Shown piece by piece: positions 17,769-54,910 of a DNA stretch of 64,000 nucleotides. Source of the stretch: Pseudoalteromonas viridis (GTDB lineage Bacteria; Pseudomonadota; Gammaproteobacteria; Enterobacterales; Alteromonadaceae). The stretch covers positions 186,001-250,000 of the forward strand of contig NZ_CP072425.1 in the NCBI RefSeq assembly GCF_017742995.1, read 5' to 3'. Position numbers and translations under genes: made by a program. Under the pieces are notes generated by a model that was given only the letters and a program-made list of their open reading frames with translations, did no database searches and was not told the origin of the DNA. The stretch's first letter is position 1, and each line of letters begins with the position of its first letter.

Positions 17769-20700
17769 TTAAATCTGCGGCAGTGACTGGCCGGGTACCC
17801 AAGGAGCCCCTTTGGCCTGTAGTTGCTGCTCAAACGCTGGAATGGTCTCGCTCAGAATGGTCTGCAATTCATTACGTATTGCTCTGAGCTCTTGTGTTGC
17901 CAGGTCTACGCTGGTGCGAATAGCCGGAGTCGGGCCATACGTCGAGTAGCTGGTGCCAATCAGGGCATGGAACAAACGGTCGCCCACGGTGGCCGTGTCG
18001 TTCGTTGCGCCTACCTGGTTTTTCGCCGGGTTGCCGTTCAGGCGACTGTCCAGAGCCAGCAACTGACTGCGGATGGCTGCAAACTGGCTGTCAAATTCAC
18101 CCGGTTCAACGGAGGTGCGATCCAGTGACTGCTCCAGCATATCGAGACGCTTCACCGCTTTGCCCAGTGCCTGACCGGTTGCACTGGCCACACGCTGCAC
18201 ATCTGCCAGCTCTTTCCAGAAGGCCGCTACTTTTTCGCCGTCAATTTCCTTCAGTGCGTTACGCTGATTCAGCTGCACCACCTCAAAGGTTTGCGGTGCC
18301 TGTAACTGAGTTACCTGACCGTCGACCTCTTTGCTCATGCTGACACTGTAAGTACCCGGTGTCACCAGTGGACCCTGAGGATTAGGCGAGAAGTAATTGC
18401 CCTGTACGCCAATGGCCTGATGTGCCGGCCAGCGCAGATCCCAGTTAATGCGGTGCAAGCCTTTATTGGCCTTGCCCTGCAATTTGCGGATCACGTTGCC
18501 CTGGGCATCGCGCACAGTGAACCAGACCACCGGCTGCTGCTGGCGTTCTTCGGCTTCCAGCGACTGCCAAGATGGAACACCAAATGACTTGCCATCTTCT
18601 TTCAGGCTTTTTTCTCTTTCCTGACGCTGTGCCTTCAGGCTCTTAATGTCGTCTTTAAGGTAGTAAGTAAAAGTGGCACCAAAGTCCGGGTTCGGTGCAC
18701 GGTATTTGTTACCGCCCTGCGTGCCGACGTCCCCGCCGCCCAGCGGGCTGCGCTCGATATACCAAAGTGCATCGCGGGTTGGGAATAACAAAGACTCCTT
18801 GGCCAGCTTATCCTCAGACAAATTACGCAGTGCGCGGTAGTCATCGAGCACAAAGAAGCCGCGGCCAAAACTGGCGCCCACTAAGTCGTTTTCACGGCGC
18901 TGAATGGCCAGATCGCGGAACGAAATGGTCGGTACATTACCCGTCAGCTCCACCCAGCGTTTACCGCCATTAATAGTGAAAAACAAGCCAAACTCGGTAC
19001 CTGCGAATAACAGATCCGGGTCGACATGATCTTGCACCACACGCCACACTAAGTGCTTATCAGGCAGATTACTGGCAATCGACTTCCAGGATTTACCGCG
19101 GTTGGTACTTTTCAGTAAGTAAGGTTTATAGTCGCCAAACTTGTGGTTATCCAGCGCGATATACACGGTATCCGGGTCAAATAAATCGGCTTTAATGTCG
19201 TTGATAAATGCCGTATCTGGCACCCTGGGTAAACGTTTTACATCCACTTTACGCCAGGACTTACCGCCATTTTCGGTGATCTGAATATGGCCATCGTCGG
19301 TGCCGGCATACAGCAGGCCTTCAACCAGCGGCGACTCCGATAAAGAAGTAATGGTGCTGTATTGCGACATTGCAAACATATCCCAGGCGCCATCCCAGCC
19401 CTGCTTTCCCCCCATAATGGGCTGATGGATACGCTCGCGGTTTTTGGTCAGATCGCCCGAGATTGGCGTCCAGCTGTCGCCGCGGTCTTCAGACTGCCAC
19501 ACCCGGTGTGAGGCAAAATACAAGCGTGACGGTTTGTGCGGGCTGACCAGAATGGGCGCGTCCCAGTTAAAGCGCTCTGGCTTTTCGCCTTTGCCCGGCT
19601 GCGGCTTAATATAGACAATTTCACCTGTGGTGCGGTCGTAACGGGTCAGGTTGCCCTGCTGCCACTGCGCATACACAATATCCGGATTACCCGGCTCAGT
19701 GGCTGGCTGGTGACCATCACCAAACAGCACCACTTTCCAGTCGGTGTTCAGAATGCCGTGGCTGTTTAGCGTACGAGACGGCCCGCCCTGGGTATTGTTA
19801 TCCTGCGTACCACCGTAAATGTTGTAGAACGGCTTGTCGTCATCCAGTGCCAGCTTGTAATACTGAGTGACTGGCAAGTTTTCGTGATAACGCCAGTGCA
19901 CACCACTGTCGAAGCTCTCGTATAAGCCGCCATCAGAGCCGACCATCATGTAATTCTTATCACCGGCGATGAACTCCATCGCATGGTTATCGCCATGTTT
20001 GTCTTTCTCTTCCATTCTTTTGAAAGACTGGCCACCATCTTTGGATTCATGCAGACGCACACCGGCCAGATAGATATGGTCAAAGTGGTGAGGACTGGCG
20101 TAGAGCTCCTGGTAGTAATGCGGTCCGGTACCACCCGCCACGGCATCGGCGCCTTTGACCCAGGATGCACCGCGATCCGACGAACGATATACCGCACCTG
20201 TACGGCGGTTGAGTTCAATTGCGGCATACACCACATCCGGATTGATTGGTGAAACTTCCAGGCCAATCTTGCCCATTTCTCCCGGGGGTAACCCTTGCGA
20301 CAGCTTTTGCCAGGTTTTACCGCCGTCGGTCGATTTATGCAGGCCCGAACCCGGACCGCCGCCATAATACGCGGCCACAGTACGGTGGCGCTGCCAGGTT
20401 GCCGCATACAGTACATTCGGATCGCGCGGGTCGATGGCCACGTCGGTTACACCGGTCCAGTCGTTATCGCCAAGCACTTTGTCCCAGGTTTTACCGCCAT
20501 CGGTGGTTTTGTACAGGCCGCGCTGGCCGCCTTTGCTCCATAAAGGCCCCTGAGCAGCCACCCACACTGTGTTTGAATCGCTTGGATGAACAATGATCTC
20601 GGAGATATGGCCAGAGTTCTTCAGGCCCATATTAGTCCAGTTTGCCCCGCCATCATGACTAACATAAATGCCATCACCAAAGCTGACGTGACGACCGCCG

Positions 20701-21068
20701 ACGTTTTCGCCCGTGCCCACCCAGACGGTATTGCTGTTGCTTGGGTCCAGCACCACGGCACCGATTGAATAAACAGGCTGATCATCAAAAATGGGTTGCC
20801 AGGTGACACCGGCATTGTTGGTTTTCCACACCCCGCCGGAGCCAACACCCACATACCAGACACTGGTATCTCTGGGGTCGATGGCAATATCGGCAATACG
20901 GCCCGACATAAAGCCCGGACCAATATTTCTCAGCTCAAGCCCCTTGAAGGTGGCCGCAGACAATACCCCTTCCTCACCTTTTGCAGCCAGCCCGGGCAAG
21001 CTACAGAGCGCAGTGGCAGCACCAAACAATGCGATACGCATAGTGCGGCCAAGTTTTAGTTGTTGCAT
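17769..21068 (-). CDS. Secreted BNR/VPS10-type beta-propeller protein
   Basis: 1099 residues with a signal peptide (cleaved near GLAA, residue 28). Residues 35-770 contain many copies of the BNR/Asp-box pattern S/T-x-D-x-G-x-T/S-W, for example NNAGVTWQPIF, SHDGGANWTN, TTDGGKTWDKV, ENGGKSWRKV and TNRGKSWKSI. This indicates one or two large beta-propellers of the sortilin/VPS10 and GH74-like kind. After about 800 there is a basic linker, then a beta-sandwich (about 850-960; INWDLRWPAHQA) and a helical C-terminus. Such proteins are often annotated as glycosyl hydrolases, but I see no catalytic acids that would prove it. It is probably periplasmic or exported, and monocistronic. Confidence 0.88.
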   Translation of the reverse strand: MQQLKLGRTMRIALFGAATALCSLPGLAAKGEEGVLSAATFKGLELRNIGPGFMSGRIADIAIDPRDTSVWYVGVGSGGVWKTNNAGVTWQPIFDDQPVYSIGAVVLDPSNSNTVWVGTGENVGGRHVSFGDGIYVSHDGGANWTNMGLKNSGHISEIIVHPSDSNTVWVAAQGPLWSKGGQRGLYKTTDGGKTWDKVLGDNDWTGVTDVAIDPRDPNVLYAATWQRHRTVAAYYGGGPGSGLHKSTDGGKTWQKLSQGLPPGEMGKIGLEVSPINPDVVYAAIELNRRTGAVYRSSDRGASWVKGADAVAGGTGPHYYQELYASPHHFDHIYLAGVRLHESKDGGQSFKRMEEKDKHGDNHAMEFIAGDKNYMMVGSDGGLYESFDSGVHWRYHENLPVTQYYKLALDDDKPFYNIYGGTQDNNTQGGPSRTLNSHGILNTDWKVVLFGDGHQPATEPGNPDIVYAQWQQGNLTRYDRTTGEIVYIKPQPGKGEKPERFNWDAPILVSPHKPSRLYFASHRVWQSEDRGDSWTPISGDLTKNRERIHQPIMGGKQGWDGAWDMFAMSQYSTITSLSESPLVEGLLYAGTDDGHIQITENGGKSWRKVDVKRLPRVPDTAFINDIKADLFDPDTVYIALDNHKFGDYKPYLLKSTNRGKSWKSIASNLPDKHLVWRVVQDHVDPDLLFAGTEFGLFFTINGGKRWVELTGNVPTISFRDLAIQRRENDLVGASFGRGFFVLDDYRALRNLSEDKLAKESLLFPTRDALWYIERSPLGGGDVGTQGGNKYRAPNPDFGATFTYYLKDDIKSLKAQRQEREKSLKEDGKSFGVPSWQSLEAEERQQQPVVWFTVRDAQGNVIRKLQGKANKGLHRINWDLRWPAHQAIGVQGNYFSPNPQGPLVTPGTYSVSMSKEVDGQVTQLQAPQTFEVVQLNQRNALKEIDGEKVAAFWKELADVQRVASATGQALGKAVKRLDMLEQSLDRTSVEPGEFDSQFAAIRSQLLALDSRLNGNPAKNQVGATNDTATVGDRLFHALIGTSYSTYGPTPAIRTSVDLATQELRAIRNELQTILSETIPAFEQQLQAKGAPWVPGQSLPQI

Positions 21069-24163: not shown

Positions 24164-24781
24164 ATGAAAATCCTCGTTGCGGATGACCATCATATCGTCA
24201 GGCAGGGACTGCTGGCGCTGATCCAGGCAGCCAACGTTGGCACCATCATTGCTGACGTCGATTCCGGTGAACAGGCCTGGCAATACATTCTCAGTCATCA
24301 ACCGGATATTGCCATTCTCGATATCACCATGGGCGAAATAAGCGGGCTCAGCGTATGCCAGCGCATCAAAGCACGTGGCCTTAAAACGCGGGTGATTTTA
24401 CTGACGATGCACAATGACATTAAAGTCATAGACACCGCATTTGAAGCCGGCGCCCATGGCTATTTGCTTAAAAACGATGCGTTTAATTCGCTCGCTACAG
24501 CAATCCAGGCTGTGCAAGCTGGCAGGCAATATCTCAGCGCAGAGAATCAATCTGAACTACAAAGCTACCGCAACAACAAAACTGACTTTGGCTTAACCTT
24601 CCGGGAAAAAGAAATAATCCGCCATATCTCCTTAGGCCAGACCAATAAGCAAATAGGCAACACCTTACATATATCGGCTAAAACCGTGGATGCGCATCGC
24701 ACCCGGGTTATGAAAAAACTGGGATTTAATAAAACCGCTCAGTTGGTACGCTTCGCTATAGAAGAAGGCTTATCGTTGTAA
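24164..24781 (+). CDS. Orphan NarL/LuxR-type response regulator
   Basis: 205 residues. The receiver domain (1-120) has the acidic pair in LVADDHH (about 6-7), the phosphorylated Asp about 53 in AILDITMGE and Lys about 105 near YLLKNDAF. The LuxR-type HTH (about 142-203) has LTFREKEIIRHISLG and KTVDAHRTRVMKKLGF. It will bind DNA as a phosphorylated dimer. No histidine kinase is adjacent; the nearest in the window is at 37817-40078. The dockerin/cohesin pair begins 138 bases downstream in the same direction, so it may be that pair's regulator. This link is inferred from position only. Confidence 0.93.
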   Translation: MKILVADDHHIVRQGLLALIQAANVGTIIADVDSGEQAWQYILSHQPDIAILDITMGEISGLSVCQRIKARGLKTRVILLTMHNDIKVIDTAFEAGAHGYLLKNDAFNSLATAIQAVQAGRQYLSAENQSELQSYRNNKTDFGLTFREKEIIRHISLGQTNKQIGNTLHISAKTVDAHRTRVMKKLGFNKTAQLVRFAIEEGLSL

Positions 24782-24918: not shown

Positions 24919-26997
24919 ATGATCAGTACCCCCTTGAACTCAATTGCTCTGCGTATCAAAAATATGCTTTCCCTGCACGGTGCTCGCAATGTGCTACTGA
25001 CAAGCGTGCTATGCCTGCCTCTGGCTGGTCTGGCTCAAACACCTATTCAGGCCACCGATGTTATTCAGCTAAACTCAACCAGTCTCAGCTACAAAGCTGG
25101 TTCGTCCGTCACACTGCTGGACGATGGCAGCTATGTTGTCGCCTGGGTTGGTTATATTCCCGATACAGAGCACAGCAAAATCTACGCCCGGCGCTTTTTG
25201 GCCAATGGCATGCCAATCGGTGAGCGCTTTACCATTAACCCAGTGAACGGTGCAACTGATGAAGTACCTAACATTACCACCTTGAAAAATGGTGGCTTTG
25301 TTGTTAGCTGGCGAAGTAAGACTATCAGCCACGAAGGTTATACGCACTTTAGACTCTATGCTAAGCGCTATAACGCACAGGGCATGGCTTCATCTGAAAT
25401 GGAGTTACTCTACAATGATACAGCCTTCAAAACATCACCAGCTGTCAGTGCCTTAGATAATGGCGGAATGGTATTTACCTGGCACGGCGGTTATGAGAAC
25501 GACATATTTTTTAAGCTATATGACGCACAAAGTCGCGCAGTTGGTCAATCTGTTCGGGTCCCTGTACCAAGTTATACTAAGGTCAGAGATGTGAAAGCTA
25601 CCCAATTGAATGATGGCTTTGTGATCACCTGGGTCAGTGAAAAGAGCCGTAAATACTCAATACTAGGTCAGCGCTATAACTTAGATGGTGGAGTTGAAGG
25701 CGATACTATCACTGTGGCTGAGAATCTCCCCTTTACCAAACATAGTATTGAGACCCTGAAAAACGGCGATTTCGTTGTCAGCTGGGGAGCTAACGACAAC
25801 GTTTATGCAACCCGGCACAAGTCCAATGGTCAGCGTGTTTCCGATCCATTTGTAGTTAACACTGACACAGTAGGTAAACAATCAACCCCCTCCATCACAG
25901 GTCTTGAGAGTGGCGGTTACCTTATCAGTTGGCTCAGCGAAACGCCAAATAGTACTGGCTCAGTTTATGCCCAGCAATTTGATACACAAGACCAGCCCAC
26001 GGATGATGCGTTTGTAATCCACGCCAGCCTTGATCAAAACACAGTAGCTCAGCGCGCTAAATCTCTCAATGATGAACAATTCTTAGTAACCTGGGCTAGC
26101 AAATCACAAACTGACAACAGTTATAATATCTTCTCGCAGCACTATCAGTTTGCTGGCAGCATGACGCATTCGCTTAGGTTAGCCCTGCCACAAAACACAA
26201 TTTTGCAAGGCGATGTTATCACTCTGCCCCTACAGGTATCAGGTACTGATATTTATGGCCTGGATGCGGTTGTTAGCGTAAGTGATACCAGCAAAGCCCG
26301 TATTTCTGGCGGGGAATATGGTGAGTTCCTGCCTTCAGATGAACGCCTCTCTGTGCCTATGGGTATCAGCGATAACCAATGGGATGGCGCGCTGGCACTG
26401 ATGGCCCCCGCCACCGCCAAATCGGGCGAAGGTGAGTTTGCCGCTGTCACCCTGATTGCTGAACAAGCAGGTACCGTCAATCTAACCTTGCAAGCGCATA
26501 TGACCGACTCGCAAGGCAATTACCTGCTACAAAACAGTACCGACTATACATTTATCATCTCAGAGTCCGTCACCTTAACTGGCAACATCGCAAACCTGGG
26601 TACATCCGGGGACTTTACGGATGTTACCTTCTATATCAACGGGCAACTTGTCACCATCAATCCGGATGGCAGTTTCTCTGCCGTCGTCGGCCTGGGTGAC
26701 GTCACTATGGCGTTAAGTGCACCGGGGTATCTCACGGCCGAAAAACAGGTCAACCTGGCGGCGGGTCAGGCCGACATCGACTTTGATCAGATCAACCTGG
26801 TTGGCGGTGACAGCAATGGTGACAACCAAATCGACATTGCCGACCTGACACTACTGCTGGGGGCTTATCGCTCTGTAGAAGGTGAACAAAACGGCTACGT
26901 AACGGCCGCCGACTTTAACCGCGACGGCGCAATCAACCTGCAAGATCTCACTTTGCTGGGCGCGAACTTTGGTAAACAAGGACCGCAAAGCTGGTAG
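24919..26997 (+). CDS. Secreted seven-repeat propeller protein with cohesin-like and dockerin domains
   Basis: 692 residues with an N-terminal signal region (the hydrophobic stretch VLLTSVLCLPLAGLAQ ends near residue 40). Residues 45-410 contain seven related units, each with a core such as DGSYVVAW, NGGFVVSW, NGGMVFTW, NDGFVITW, NGDFVVSW, SGGYLISW and DEQFLVTW. A seven-bladed propeller is likely. Residues 415-550 look like a cohesin-type sandwich (GDVITLPLQVSGTDIYGLDA), 553-625 like a carboxypeptidase-regulatory sandwich. The last about 64 residues form a type I dockerin with two EF-hand-like calcium loops, DSNGDNQIDIADL and DFNRDGAINLQDL. The next gene encodes a membrane-anchored cohesin-like protein, the obvious partner. 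Confidence 0.85.
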   Translation: MISTPLNSIALRIKNMLSLHGARNVLLTSVLCLPLAGLAQTPIQATDVIQLNSTSLSYKAGSSVTLLDDGSYVVAWVGYIPDTEHSKIYARRFLANGMPIGERFTINPVNGATDEVPNITTLKNGGFVVSWRSKTISHEGYTHFRLYAKRYNAQGMASSEMELLYNDTAFKTSPAVSALDNGGMVFTWHGGYENDIFFKLYDAQSRAVGQSVRVPVPSYTKVRDVKATQLNDGFVITWVSEKSRKYSILGQRYNLDGGVEGDTITVAENLPFTKHSIETLKNGDFVVSWGANDNVYATRHKSNGQRVSDPFVVNTDTVGKQSTPSITGLESGGYLISWLSETPNSTGSVYAQQFDTQDQPTDDAFVIHASLDQNTVAQRAKSLNDEQFLVTWASKSQTDNSYNIFSQHYQFAGSMTHSLRLALPQNTILQGDVITLPLQVSGTDIYGLDAVVSVSDTSKARISGGEYGEFLPSDERLSVPMGISDNQWDGALALMAPATAKSGEGEFAAVTLIAEQAGTVNLTLQAHMTDSQGNYLLQNSTDYTFIISESVTLTGNIANLGTSGDFTDVTFYINGQLVTINPDGSFSAVVGLGDVTMALSAPGYLTAEKQVNLAAGQADIDFDQINLVGGDSNGDNQIDIADLTLLLGAYRSVEGEQNGYVTAADFNRDGAINLQDLTLLGANFGKQGPQSW

Positions 26998-27006
26998 CAA
27001 ACCAAA

Positions 27007-27035
27007 CAGGAGTCAGGGACCTCCCCTGACTCCTG
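27007..27035 (+). promoter_or_regulatory. Intercistronic hairpin between dockerin and cohesin genes
   Basis: Perfect 12-bp stem CAGGAGTCAGGG / CCCTGACTCCTG with loop ACCTC, between the stop at 26997 and the start at 27059. There is no T-run, so it may be an attenuator or an mRNA-processing/stability element setting the ratio of the two proteins. Confidence 0.6.
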
Positions 27036-27058
27036 ACATTGATTTTATGGAGCAAAAA

Positions 27059-27697
27059 ATGAATTACATTGTGTGTATCGCCGCGTTACTGTTTAGTCTG
27101 AGTGCACTTGCAGAGCAAGGACGTATCTACCTCACAACCTCCGATCCGCAAATTAAAACCGGCAGCGAATTTTATGTGGATGTGATGGCAGAAAACTTGC
27201 CTGAGGTATACGGCGTGCAGCTCACCCTGAACTATGACGCCAAATCCATCACCTTTGTCGATCAAGACAGCAAAGCCAAGGGTGAACAGCTTGAGCAGGG
27301 TAACTTTCTCGATGAAAAACACCTCTATACCCTGCGTAACCAGGCTGACTCGAAAACAGGCCAGATCCAATATATTGCCAGCCAGGTTGCACCGGCAAAA
27401 AACGCAGCCGGTAACGGACGTATCGCCCGTCTGTACTTTAGCGCGCCAGATAACGCCACCCAAGCGGAGGTAGCCATTACGCTTGCAGAGTTTGGCACCC
27501 GCAGTGGAGAAAAATACACATACCGCCCCCAGGCACCTTTGAGCGTCAGCTTTGCTAACAACTACCAAGTACAAGCCAAGCCGGGGACAGGGTTCCCGAC
27601 CTGGGCATTTGGCTTAACAGCCTTATTGTTGGTGATCCCTGGAATTTTTTTATTGCGCAGACGCCCTGCTGCCAAACACGCGGAACAATCCGTTTGA
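27059..27697 (+). CDS. Membrane-anchored cohesin-like protein
   Basis: From the ATG at 27059 (GGAG ribosome site 7 bases upstream; in-frame starts at 26969 and 27047 are less good) this is a 212-residue protein. A signal peptide (IAALLFSLSALAEQ) is followed by one cohesin-type domain: IYLTTSDPQIKTGSEFYVDV, YGVQLTLNYDAKSITFVD, GRIARLYFSA. After a short linker there is a C-terminal membrane helix (WAFGLTALLLVIPGIFLL) and a basic tail RRRP. The domain faces the periplasm or cell surface and could hold dockerin proteins such as the one encoded just upstream. Cohesin/dockerin interactions are calcium-dependent in cellulosomes; function here is unknown. Confidence 0.83.
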   Translation: MNYIVCIAALLFSLSALAEQGRIYLTTSDPQIKTGSEFYVDVMAENLPEVYGVQLTLNYDAKSITFVDQDSKAKGEQLEQGNFLDEKHLYTLRNQADSKTGQIQYIASQVAPAKNAAGNGRIARLYFSAPDNATQAEVAITLAEFGTRSGEKYTYRPQAPLSVSFANNYQVQAKPGTGFPTWAFGLTALLLVIPGIFLLRRRPAAKHAEQSV

Positions 27698-51377: not shown

Positions 51378-51586
51378 TAAGCAATAAAGTATTCAAAGCG
51401 TGAAAGTTAACACTTTAATTTTAAACAAATAAATTACCAGCAATATTACAATCCATTACATTCACTGTATTTTTTATTCGAATATACGATTACAATAGGC
51501 TAATTCATCGCCAAATCATAACCAACTCAGCCCCCTGCGAGTCGCTGCGATATGGCGATCTACTAGACAAACCTTTGGAGTACCCA

Positions 51587-54500
51587 GTGACATACAGACG
51601 AATTTTCCCTGCGGCAGCCCTGCTCTCCCTTATTTTGAGTGGTTGTGGCGGAGGCAGTAACAACGCGGATAATACAAACCAATCAACGCTCACGACACCA
51701 GCTGAAACCTTTACTCTGACTACCAATATTAGCGGCTCTGGCAGCGTCACTCCCGCTACACAATCTGTGCGTAAAGGTGGTTATGCCACTTTAATACTCG
51801 AGCCGGAAGAAGGTTATTACTCAGACTCAGCCACCGGGTGTGACGGCACATTGGATGGCGATCTGTATACCATTGAAAACATGCAGGCCGCCTGTACTGT
51901 TGAAATTCAGTTTAAACCCCGTATAAAACTCAGCGAACTGGATATGGACCCGGCACTCGCGCAATGCTTAGCCCGCGATAATAGCTATCAATACGCTGAC
52001 GAAGTGACTTATTTGTACTGTGAAGAACCAATCAGTAGCGCCGAGGCCATCAAGCACTTTAGAAAGCTGCAATCTTTAGACTTGCATAGCGAAAGTTTAA
52101 CCAGTCTGGATATCTCAGAAAATTCAGAGTTAGAGGTATTGTGGTTCTCAGGTCCACTGCTTGCTGCGCTTGATGTATCAAACAACACAAACCTTAACGC
52201 CTTGTTCGTGCACAACAGCCAACTTAAGTCACTGGATACCTCCAAAAACCTTGCCCTGACAAGCCTGACAATATCCAGTGAACAACTGAAAACACTGGAT
52301 ATCTCTCAGAATAAACAGCTCACTGGCCTGGCGATATACTCTTATCCATTGGAAGCGCTGGATGTGTCTAACAACCCGGACCTAACTTCACTGTCAGTTA
52401 ACAGTCAGGTGCTGTCGAACCTTGATATCAGCACCAACATACACCTTGAAAGTTTGAGCCTTGAAAGTACACCAATAACCACTCTGGATCTTTCTAACAA
52501 TACCAAGCTTTACTCCCTGTGGCTTAATCGCGTTGCAATCACAGAGCTGGATCTATCACACAATTCTGCGCTAGCGAGTATGAATCTTTACGACATCCCG
52601 CTATCAAGCCTGAACTTAGCAAACGCCCCACAATTGAGCAGTTTAGATATGTATAGCAACCAGCTGACTCATCTGGATCTAACTAATGCCACACAACTTG
52701 TCCATTTGGGGGTAGCCGATAATCAGCTTACTGAGGTTGATCTCAGCCAAAATAGCGCACTGGAAAGCCTCTGGCTACCCGATAACGCGCTGACAAAGAT
52801 TAATTTGAACAACAATCCGCGTTTACAATCACTGAACCTGTCGGGCAATGCGTTAACCACCATTGACCTGTCTAACAGCCCTGCTCTGACTAGTTTGCAG
52901 CTTGGATATAATCAACTTTCCGCCCTGGATTTGTCTGGGTTGCCGAATCTCACAGCGCTCAATGTACAAAACAACCAGCTGAGTGAGTTGGATATCTCGC
53001 ATAACCCCATGCTGGCTGAACTTCACCTGTCAAACAACCAGCTATCACAGCTTAACTTTCCAGTAAATGATGCGCTGACTGAACTATCAGTTTCTGGTGA
53101 TGGATTTACCCAGCTGAACTTCTCAAATTTCAAAGCGCTCACCAAGCTGTCTGTGTCTGGTAACAAGCTAACAAGCATCACACTAGACCAAAACACAGAA
53201 CTATCAGAACTAATGATATTCGCAGATAATTTACAAAAGTTAGATGTGTCAAAAAACACTGCGCTTACCCATTTTGCAATCGAAAGCGAGGCTCTCACAG
53301 TACTGGACGTCAGCAACAACACCGTACTGCAAACACTGAAAATATATGACTCGCAGCTCGATACTCTGGATATCTCTAAACAGGCTTTGCTGACAGAGCT
53401 GCAAGTGCTTGCGTGGGACATGCCAGAGCTGGATATTAGTAGTAACCCGCTACTTAAAAAGTTGTCCGTTCAAAGTGAACAGCTCACCGCGCTCGACTTA
53501 TCCAATAACACACAGCTTGAACAGCTGACCGTCTATGCTAAACAACTACCTCGGCTGGATGTCTCTGTCACTCCCAACTTAAAAGAACTCAAGGTAAGTA
53601 GTTCTTTAATTGAAAACCTGGCGCTATCTAAGTTAACACTACTTAAGCAGCTGGAGTTGAGTTCGATGCCGATAAAAACACTGGATTTATCCGCTCACCC
53701 AGAACTCACTGAGCTATGGCTTGACGACCTGCCACTTAACAGCCTGAACCTGTCTGATGTACCTCAAATAGATAGACTGACTATCAGGTGGTCACAACTT
53801 ACTCACCTTGACCTTACATCTAATACGAAGCTGCGCAACCTGCACCTAGGTGGCAACCCACTGACGAGCATAAATTTATCTGCCAACACGCTATTAGAAC
53901 ACGCCTATTTATCTGATAACCAGCTGACAGAGCTGGATATTTCCAACAGCCCCCAATTGTATTTTCTGAGTGCGAACTACAACCAACTGACTACATTGCG
54001 TATTGCAGACCAACCCGGGCTGCAAACGCTGCTTGTGCGCAGCAACCCGCTCAATACACTCTCCGTGATAAATGCACCTTTGCTATCTGAGCTTGATGTC
54101 TCCAGCAACCAGCTCACGTCGCTCAGCCTGTCTGGTGTCAACACGCTAAATAACCTCAGAGCTCACAGCAATCAATTAAGCTCGCTGGACCTATCTGAGT
54201 TGTCAGCGTTGCAAACACTAGATGTGAGTTCAAATCAACTTACAACGCTGGACCTGAGCAACAATTCAGCCCTTTCTACTGTTAATGTAAACTACAATCA
54301 ACTGTCCTCTGTGACACTGGGCAGTCATGATGCACTCACCGAACTGCGGGCAGTAGACAATCAGCTGAAAGAGCTTAACCTTTCATCGACCCCGGCGCTC
54401 ATTACCCTGGAAGTGGACAACAACCAGCTGACGCAACTGGATACCACTGCAAGTCCGGCAATCGAGTCAATAAGTGCTAACTACAACCAGTTGTCCGGGC

Positions 54501-54910
54501 TTAATCTGGCAACCAATTCGGCGTTAAAAAGCTTGTCTGTCTCAAGCAACCAGCTAAGTACGTTAGATGTCTCTGGTCAAACTGCTCTCACCTATGTTGA
54601 TGTGACAGTGAATAAGCTCGCTCAGCTTGATGTCACTCAAAGTGCTGCGCTGTATACCTTGCTAGCCAGCAACAACCAGCTAACGGGGCTAGACTCGTCG
54701 GGCAACAAAGCGCTGGTGTATCTGAACCTGACGGGTAACCGGATCACATCTCTTGATTTAACCAATAACAGTCAATTGAACTACCTCTACCTTTACGACA
54801 ATGCCTTGTCGCATATCGATGTCAGTGCAATTGAACAACTGTACTCTCTTGAACTCGACTTCGGCGTAACCTGTACTGGCGATATGTGTTCAGCGGCCTA
54901 TTACTACTAA
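51587..54910 (+). CDS. Giant leucine-rich-repeat lipoprotein with InlB-like domain
   Basis: 1107 residues from the GTG at 51587 (GGAG 6 bases upstream). A lipoprotein signal peptide ends with LSGC, so the mature protein begins at the lipidated Cys (about 19). Residues 40-115 resemble the divergent InlB B-repeat: TNISGSGSVTPATQSVRKGG, then EEGYYSDSATGCDG. From about 165 to 1085 there are some forty or more repeats of about 21 residues built on LTxLDLSxNxxLTxLxVxxN, for example LDISENSELEVL, LDVSNNTNLNAL and LDLSNNTKLYSL. The repeats form a long solenoid. Probably surface-exposed and adhesive. The protein ends with two Cys (VTCTGDMCSAA). No partner gene is adjacent. Confidence 0.88.
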   Translation: MTYRRIFPAAALLSLILSGCGGGSNNADNTNQSTLTTPAETFTLTTNISGSGSVTPATQSVRKGGYATLILEPEEGYYSDSATGCDGTLDGDLYTIENMQAACTVEIQFKPRIKLSELDMDPALAQCLARDNSYQYADEVTYLYCEEPISSAEAIKHFRKLQSLDLHSESLTSLDISENSELEVLWFSGPLLAALDVSNNTNLNALFVHNSQLKSLDTSKNLALTSLTISSEQLKTLDISQNKQLTGLAIYSYPLEALDVSNNPDLTSLSVNSQVLSNLDISTNIHLESLSLESTPITTLDLSNNTKLYSLWLNRVAITELDLSHNSALASMNLYDIPLSSLNLANAPQLSSLDMYSNQLTHLDLTNATQLVHLGVADNQLTEVDLSQNSALESLWLPDNALTKINLNNNPRLQSLNLSGNALTTIDLSNSPALTSLQLGYNQLSALDLSGLPNLTALNVQNNQLSELDISHNPMLAELHLSNNQLSQLNFPVNDALTELSVSGDGFTQLNFSNFKALTKLSVSGNKLTSITLDQNTELSELMIFADNLQKLDVSKNTALTHFAIESEALTVLDVSNNTVLQTLKIYDSQLDTLDISKQALLTELQVLAWDMPELDISSNPLLKKLSVQSEQLTALDLSNNTQLEQLTVYAKQLPRLDVSVTPNLKELKVSSSLIENLALSKLTLLKQLELSSMPIKTLDLSAHPELTELWLDDLPLNSLNLSDVPQIDRLTIRWSQLTHLDLTSNTKLRNLHLGGNPLTSINLSANTLLEHAYLSDNQLTELDISNSPQLYFLSANYNQLTTLRIADQPGLQTLLVRSNPLNTLSVINAPLLSELDVSSNQLTSLSLSGVNTLNNLRAHSNQLSSLDLSELSALQTLDVSSNQLTTLDLSNNSALSTVNVNYNQLSSVTLGSHDALTELRAVDNQLKELNLSSTPALITLEVDNNQLTQLDTTASPAIESISANYNQLSGLNLATNSALKSLSVSSNQLSTLDVSGQTALTYVDVTVNKLAQLDVTQSAALYTLLASNNQLTGLDSSGNKALVYLNLTGNRITSLDLTNNSQLNYLYLYDNALSHIDVSAIEQLYSLELDFGVTCTGDMCSAAYYY

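Follow-up and report, generated by a model that had tools for sequence, protein, structure and literature searches.

A dockerin propeller protein and its putative cohesin anchor in Pseudoalteromonas viridis: a conserved tail with a hypervariable head

Introduction

Pairs of cohesin and dockerin have been described chiefly in anaerobes that break down plant fibre. A stretch of 64,000 nucleotides from Pseudoalteromonas viridis (NZ_CP072425.1, positions 186,001 to 250,000; hereafter the window) carries two adjacent genes, here called A and B, which encode a secreted dockerin protein with a beta-propeller and a cohesin with a C-terminal membrane helix. Our analysis indicates that A and B probably form a non-cellulosomal cohesin-dockerin tether, in which a constant mount carries a variable propeller head. 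The features of the pair, in coordinates of the window, are as follows.

24919..26997, + strand: gene A, secreted dockerin protein of 692 amino acids (open reading frame, ORF; PF00404 over its cut-off)
25039..26157, + strand: hypervariable head of A, a seven-repeat beta-propeller, about residues 41-413
26200..26562, + strand: cohesin-like domain within A, about residues 428-548, which opens the conserved tail (by the profile of relatives)
26563..26802, + strand: small beta module ahead of the dockerin, about residues 549-628 (match to 2b59_B)
26806..26958, + strand: type I dockerin of A, residues 630-680, with two calcium loops (PF00404)
27059..27697, + strand: gene B, 212 amino acids, cohesin with C-terminal membrane helix (PF00963; predicted fold)
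27155..27496, + strand: cohesin domain of B, residues 33-146 by Pfam, the genome's only PF00963 match
27599..27694, + strand: membrane helix and basic tail RRR of B (hydropathy; tails of relatives)

Domains of the two proteins

An earlier note, made from the letters of the window alone, had read repeats and dockerin loops in A, and a signal peptide, a cohesin, a helix and a basic tail in B, all of which we find where it placed them. The profile searches that it proposed agree: PF00404 (Dockerin_1) matches residues 630-680 of A with 32.7 bits against a cut-off of 22.9, and PF00963 (Cohesin) matches residues 33-146 of B with 34.7 bits against 24.1. A search for further dockerins, also proposed there, returned two matches in the genome, that of A being the best. 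With this match and two EF-hand-like calcium loops, read from the sequence as DSNGDNQIDIADL and DFNRDGAINLQDL, A carries a type I dockerin. The small beta module ahead of it has a position like that of the X module of type II dockerins; PF13715 matches it with 17.4 bits, below that family's cut-off, and part of the module together with the dockerin (residues 595-686) matches 2b59_B at E 8.3e-6. The N-terminus of A resembles an export signal, and the protein has relatives of 50-53% identity in three named Pseudoalteromonas records.

The head of A holds seven repeats of the form [GEDN]x[FYMS]..W, at residues 70, 125, 182, 232, 283, 332 and 386, compared with a mean of 0.06 and a maximum of 2 in 2000 shuffles of that stretch. 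Our structure model of A (mean predicted local distance difference test, pLDDT, of 64, from an alignment of five sequences) forms a beta-propeller over about residues 41-413. Residues 46-413 of the model align with the propeller part of CylK over 347 residues at 3.0 A, and among many propellers the head also aligns with Photorhabdus lectins, integrins and sialidase-type enzymes. The seven repeats and the CylK alignment identify the head as a ring of repeated blades. Less strongly supported, through related A proteins, is the cohesin-like domain behind it: a profile of 23 such domains aligns with the cohesin family (hhalign 91.5%, E 8.5e-7), PF00963 matches two related A frames below its cut-off, and our cohesin profile matches six A proteins from other genomes. 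The cohesin-like sandwich that had been claimed for A is thus borne out in its relatives, while the cohesin profile gave no match to the window's own A; the profile of the A-internal domains found no solved chain at E up to 1.

B most likely starts with the ATG at 27059 (or 27047); the TTG start at 26969 given in the ORF list falls within A. Its N-terminus is hydrophobic and signal-peptide-like, and hydropathy places a helix at its C-terminus, followed by RRR. In a second structure model, a computed join of A's beta module and dockerin with B, the B portion adopts a cohesin fold, its 43 best VIA entries being cohesins without exception and its best Foldseek match a type II cohesin. The earlier note had regarded any other fold of B as fatal to a tether; the predicted fold and the PF00963 match both identify B as a cohesin. 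Matches to antibodies, with a best E of 0.055 for B alone, were rejected as immunoglobulin-like noise, because the family profile retrieves cohesins.

Conserved tails and hypervariable heads

The comparison of heads and tails covered 26 A proteins in 325 pairs, leaving out a 384-residue copy of locus L184 and the duplicate records L154-L156. Tails were more than 80% identical in 49 of the 325 pairs, and in 41 of those 49 the heads were less than 50% identical. Median head identity stays at 0.27-0.28 while tail identity spans from below 0.4 to 0.8, and reaches 0.33 at tail identities of 0.8-0.9 and 0.50 in the 13 pairs with tails above 0.9. At shared residues, codon identity in the 0.8-0.9 tail class was 0.37 for heads and 0.63 for tails, compared with about 0.37 for distant pairs. 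A conserved C-terminal half of A combined with a hypervariable head within Pseudoalteromonas is new. The window's own locus follows the pattern, being 90% identical to its P. rubra relative (L186) in the tail, 91% in the upstream regulator and 68% in B, against 31% in the head. B identity climbs with tail identity, from a median of 0.39 to 0.89, which is what one would expect if B docks with that tail.

The tandem A copies of L177 have tails that are 95% identical (identity 0.95, codon identity 0.95) and heads that are 28% identical (0.28 and 0.39), with DNA identity dropping from 0.93 to 0.48 between neighbouring blocks of 40 residues. In L182 and L184, two heads are 96% identical on tails that are 92% identical (codons 0.75), and one of these tails has a closer match in the second copy carried by its own genome (0.96; codons 0.86), a pattern such as gene conversion of tails would give. 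These two cases bear on the proposal that the heads reflect ordinary fast divergence of old paralogs, with neither exchange nor selected diversity. Propeller repeats can indeed accommodate change, and some pairs of orthologous heads share 91-96% identity, as such divergence would allow; it accounts poorly for heads whose codon identity is at background level while their tails hardly differ at synonymous sites, as in L177, or for heads and tails with different nearest relatives, as in L182 and L184, and we regard it as improbable. A search across the window's genome for spare propeller heads found nothing besides A itself.

Recurrence of the pair in Pseudoalteromonas

The class of A proteins of about 700 residues occurs in 21 loci of the genus, with 28 A genes that include one 188-residue fragment and one broken copy. 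B adjoins A in all 21, as judged by the cohesin profile in 17 and by PF00963 in four. PF00963 has 27 matches in the genus; the A loci account for 23, two of which fall inside A frames. Five loci are ordered A-A-B, and two (L190, L192) are ordered A-B-A-B, each dockerin gene having its own cohesin gene.

The five loci with two A genes per B would suit head-to-tail chains, in which the dockerin of one A would bind its neighbour's cohesin-like domain, with B capping and anchoring the chain, and A does contain both kinds of domain. Set against this are the A-B-A-B loci and the divergence of A's cohesin-like domain, which finds no solved cohesin and is missed by the cohesin profile in the window's A, so that chains seem to us unlikely.

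In two loci the first tandem A gene is broken into overlapping ORFs, of 313 residues at L156:4667-5821 and 384 at L184:5921-7075, with the conserved tail still open. The second dockerin protein of the window's genome (L004:7824-11162, contig C2, - strand) belongs to a class of about 1112-1118 residues, and its dockerin scored 25.1 bits, over the cut-off, in one search and 18.9, under it, in another. In eight of nine loci of this kind (L004:7824-11706, - strand, for the pair; also L196-L203) the dockerin gene stands beside a gene for a lipoprotein of about 177 residues. This lipoprotein is possibly a lipid-anchored cohesin, a lead that our comparisons do not support: it aligned with the cohesin family at 46% (hhalign), matched no solved chain and was not matched by the cohesin profile. 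A further class of about 1213-1222 residues (L204-L209) carries its dockerin internally, at about residues 943-995; no cohesin neighbour was found in these loci, several of which have an adjoining gene for about 875-878 residues.

Dockerin genes and their cargoes across Alteromonadaceae

In a set of 147 Alteromonadaceae genomes, PF00404 matched 73 and PF00963 matched 20, with 115 dockerin matches in all. A first set of 94 loci covered 97 of these 115 matches, plus six loci chosen by cohesin match; a second set covered the other 16, the window's own two being kept apart, with no called dockerin ORF in G080 and G113:C3. A cohesin-like gene adjoins 75 of the 98 dockerin genes in loci fetched for their dockerin match and seven of 13 in the second set, hence 82 of 111 together, a cohesin gene flanked by two dockerin genes being counted for both. 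The adjoining gene is small, and its product usually ends in a PEP-CTERM (exosortase) tail. In L139 the cohesin gene is not a direct neighbour, and a cohesin match under the cut-off at G083:C11:101431 was not confirmed. The pair had been called unusual for marine gammaproteobacteria, which is wrong for this family, where about half of the genomes contain a dockerin match and a cohesin-like neighbour stands beside most of the dockerin genes inspected. In a sample of 369 gammaproteobacterial genomes, cohesin was matched in 22 genomes and dockerin in 42.

The neighbours were kept by eye, 79 out of 104 candidates. When a profile built from half of the loci was run on the other half, it recovered 78 of the 78 neighbours selected there; of 769 other ORFs it picked up two, and one of these encodes a PEP-CTERM cohesin close to a dockerin gene. 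The recovery measures likeness among neighbours selected by eye. Independently of this profile, in an alignment of 80 anchor proteins including B, PF00963 was found in 43 and the PEP-CTERM family PF07589 in 47 (E up to 0.1), and the 24 best solved chains for the alignment are cohesin modules. Dockerin and cohesin distances correlate across pairs. In three loci (L065, L066, L111) a single PEP-CTERM cohesin gene has a large dockerin gene on either side, and one anchor may serve two cargoes there.

Judged from domain matches, dockerin proteins in this family are usually extracellular nucleases. Five of ten dockerin proteins scanned singly have Exo_endo_phos nuclease domains, one of them with Endonuclease I as well; a glucuronyl esterase and an M43 peptidase are among the rest. 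For 41 further proteins (42 drawn at random, L150 left out), the best 25 of 42 families include LTD (20), Exo_endo_phos (17), Endonuclease_1 (14), M9 collagenase (two) and S8 peptidase (one). The window's propeller protein is a cargo of another kind.

Anchoring of B and the sorting systems

Exosortase (PF09721) matches 115 of the 147 family genomes, 114 of them over the cut-off, and is found in 71 of 73 genomes with a dockerin as against 44 of 74 without (Fisher p 9e-9, uncorrected for kinship). The two dockerin genomes lacking a match are the window's own and G029 (81% complete), neither of whose two dockerin genes has a cohesin neighbour. None of 108 Pseudoalteromonas genomes reaches the exosortase cut-off, one giving a weak match, whereas dockerin was matched in 23 of them, cohesin in 21, and both in 19 (the overlap was counted by hand). 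In 19 Pseudoalteromonas B proteins the tail is a membrane helix plus basic residues, and the tails share no sorting motif. The tail of the window's B has neither a PEP nor a GlyGly motif, and family profile scans gave no sorting-tail family at its cut-off. B is thus no recognisable substrate of an exosortase, having no PEP-CTERM match in a genome without a PF09721 match, nor of rhombosortase, since the GlyGly motif and family match are absent, though the enzyme itself is present (167.7 bits against a cut-off of 84).

The presence of this rhombosortase bears on a second arrangement, in which the complex forms and another sorting enzyme, for example rhombosortase, cuts B and moves it to the outer surface, with the propeller facing outward. 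Most family relatives of B do carry a surface-sorting tail, and an outside position suits a variable binding head best. The 19 Pseudoalteromonas tails lack a PEP or GlyGly motif ahead of the helix and the genome has no exosortase match; we consider this outcome rather unlikely.

Regulator and surrounding genes

24164..24781, + strand: response regulator of NarL/LuxR type with receiver and GerE domains, upstream of A (profiles)

This regulator, described previously as an orphan LuxR protein, has indeed no kinase gene directly beside it; its profile scores (PF00072, 90.6 bits; PF00196, 62.1 bits) make it a response regulator with a receiver as well as a GerE domain. In 15 of the 21 Pseudoalteromonas loci it precedes A by at most two ORFs, a gene order that suggests that it may control A and B. 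The supposed absence of glycoside hydrolases nearby holds for the eight flanking genes, which contained none; the scan covered these genes and not the remainder of the window. Near the pair, adjoining a TonB receptor, is a gene for a 1099-residue secreted propeller protein of sortilin/BNR type (17769-21068, - strand), and further away one for a probable lipoprotein of 1111 residues with many leucine-rich repeats (51575-54910, + strand).

Discussion

The sequence, the fold predicted for B, the order of the genes and their recurrence give good support to a putative tether of A to the envelope, as previously suggested. In the mechanism we propose, both proteins would be exported through their signal-peptide-like N-termini, and B would be held in the membrane by its C-terminal helix, with the cohesin on the non-cytoplasmic side according to topology rules. 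The dockerin of A, with calcium in its two loops, would bind the cohesin of B, as suggested by family membership, gene order and co-variation, and the propeller would thereby be kept at the envelope. The tail of A and B would make up the constant mount, and the propeller would be the variable part, swapped or diverged beyond recognition while tails stay alike; identity patterns suggest that tails were gene-converted between tandem copies in at least one genome. The likeliest role of the head, hinted at by its lectin-like fold and its hypervariability, would be the binding of a ligand that changes, for instance a glycan or a structure on a foreign surface.

Several observations weigh against this account. 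We identified neither a ligand nor an active site of A, and the dockerin portion has a pLDDT below 50 in both models, so that docking cannot be read from them. Heads are also inherited, with at least 50% identity in eight of the 49 tail-similar pairs and more than 90% in four. The correlation of dockerin and cohesin distances is inflated by shared ancestry, which was only partly controlled. The plain C-terminal helix of B predicts the inner membrane, and hence a periplasmic propeller, which fits poorly with ligands outside. Finally, 29 of the 111 dockerin genes of the family lack a cohesin gene beside them, and four PF00963 matches of the genus (L250, L251, L252, L253) lie beside the regulator with no dockerin gene adjoining, from which it follows that the regulator-cohesin unit can stand without A. 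These unpaired genes would also suit A's loops binding calcium for stability only and B's cohesin serving some other partner; adjacency in 82 of 111 genes and the co-variation of both domains speak against that, and we hold it to be very improbable. In the four regulator-cohesin units the cohesin is a membrane protein, and the units adjoin a secreted repeat protein of about 385-395 residues on the other strand.

Beyond a tether with a constant mount and a variable head, it is tempting to hypothesize a polymorphic recognition system built on cohesin-dockerin hardware. Heads would be exchanged by recombination between lineages and tandem copies, their diversity would be selected by a changing partner (phage, competitor, host glycan or kin), and the system would derive from the exosortase-anchored dockerin-enzyme module that is common in the family through loss of the sorting system and a change of anchor. 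We advance this fuller account tentatively, as a possibility that falls somewhat short of probable.

The common form of one cargo and one anchor, on nucleases, peptidases and esterases, would show how marine Gammaproteobacteria retain enzymes at the envelope, and it offers compact natural pairs usable in protein engineering. Within Pseudoalteromonas, the conserved tail and hypervariable head point to a recognition system whose partner can be sought directly, and a pair kept without a recognisable exosortase is a natural test of what the PEP-CTERM tail contributes.

Comparison with known systems

Our searches of open-access literature yielded no description of the pair, of a dockerin with PEP-CTERM or with an extracellular nuclease, or of a hypervariable Pseudoalteromonas beta-propeller, and joint mentions of dockerin and exosortase were found for archaea only. 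A cellulosome was rejected for the window's genome, which has one cohesin and two dockerin matches and no multi-cohesin scaffold with many dockerin enzymes. The cellulosome's type II anchors carry S-layer homology (SLH) repeats, whereas B has a membrane helix. Nonetheless, type II anchoring (the CipA X-dockerin of C. thermocellum; 2b59, 5k39, 5g5d) resembles A and B in that a cargo with a beta module and C-terminal dockerin meets a cohesin on an envelope anchor, and both the 2b59_B match of A and the best Foldseek match of B fall there. A and B differ in having one cargo and a single-cohesin anchor, no scaffold, a hypervariable head, a Gram-negative host and no glycoside hydrolase among the eight flanking genes.

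Photorhabdus PLL and PHL lectins are seven-bladed beta-propellers; at 9-13% identity with the head of A, the likeness is one of fold only, which integrins, sialidase-type enzymes and others share. In PEP-CTERM/exosortase sorting (PMC1569441), the parallel is the PF07589 tail of 47 of the 80 anchor-alignment proteins; the difference lies in the window's B, which lacks this tail, and in its genome, where exosortase finds no match. GlyGly-CTERM proteins, which include extracellular nucleases (PMC3237569), likewise have a nuclease cargo held by a C-terminal signal, and rhombosortase is present in the window's genome; there, however, the sorting signal is on the cargo, whereas dockerin cargoes end in the dockerin, the sorting tail is on a second protein, and B lacks the GlyGly motif.

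Other systems are non-cellulosomal. The cohesin-like modules of C. perfringens (2vo8, 2jh2) and the module of Archaeoglobus (2xdh) are among the best structural matches of B, and the cohesins and dockerins of anaerobic methanotrophic (ANME) archaea (PMC5244752) are likewise modules outside cellulose degradation, whose function outside cellulosomes is given there as not known. A and B differ from these as a dedicated two-gene pair that recurs across a gammaproteobacterial family. By the tests made, the pair does not qualify as a cellulosome, nor B as a substrate of exosortase; A and B are a variant of the known non-cellulosomal cohesin-dockerin kind.
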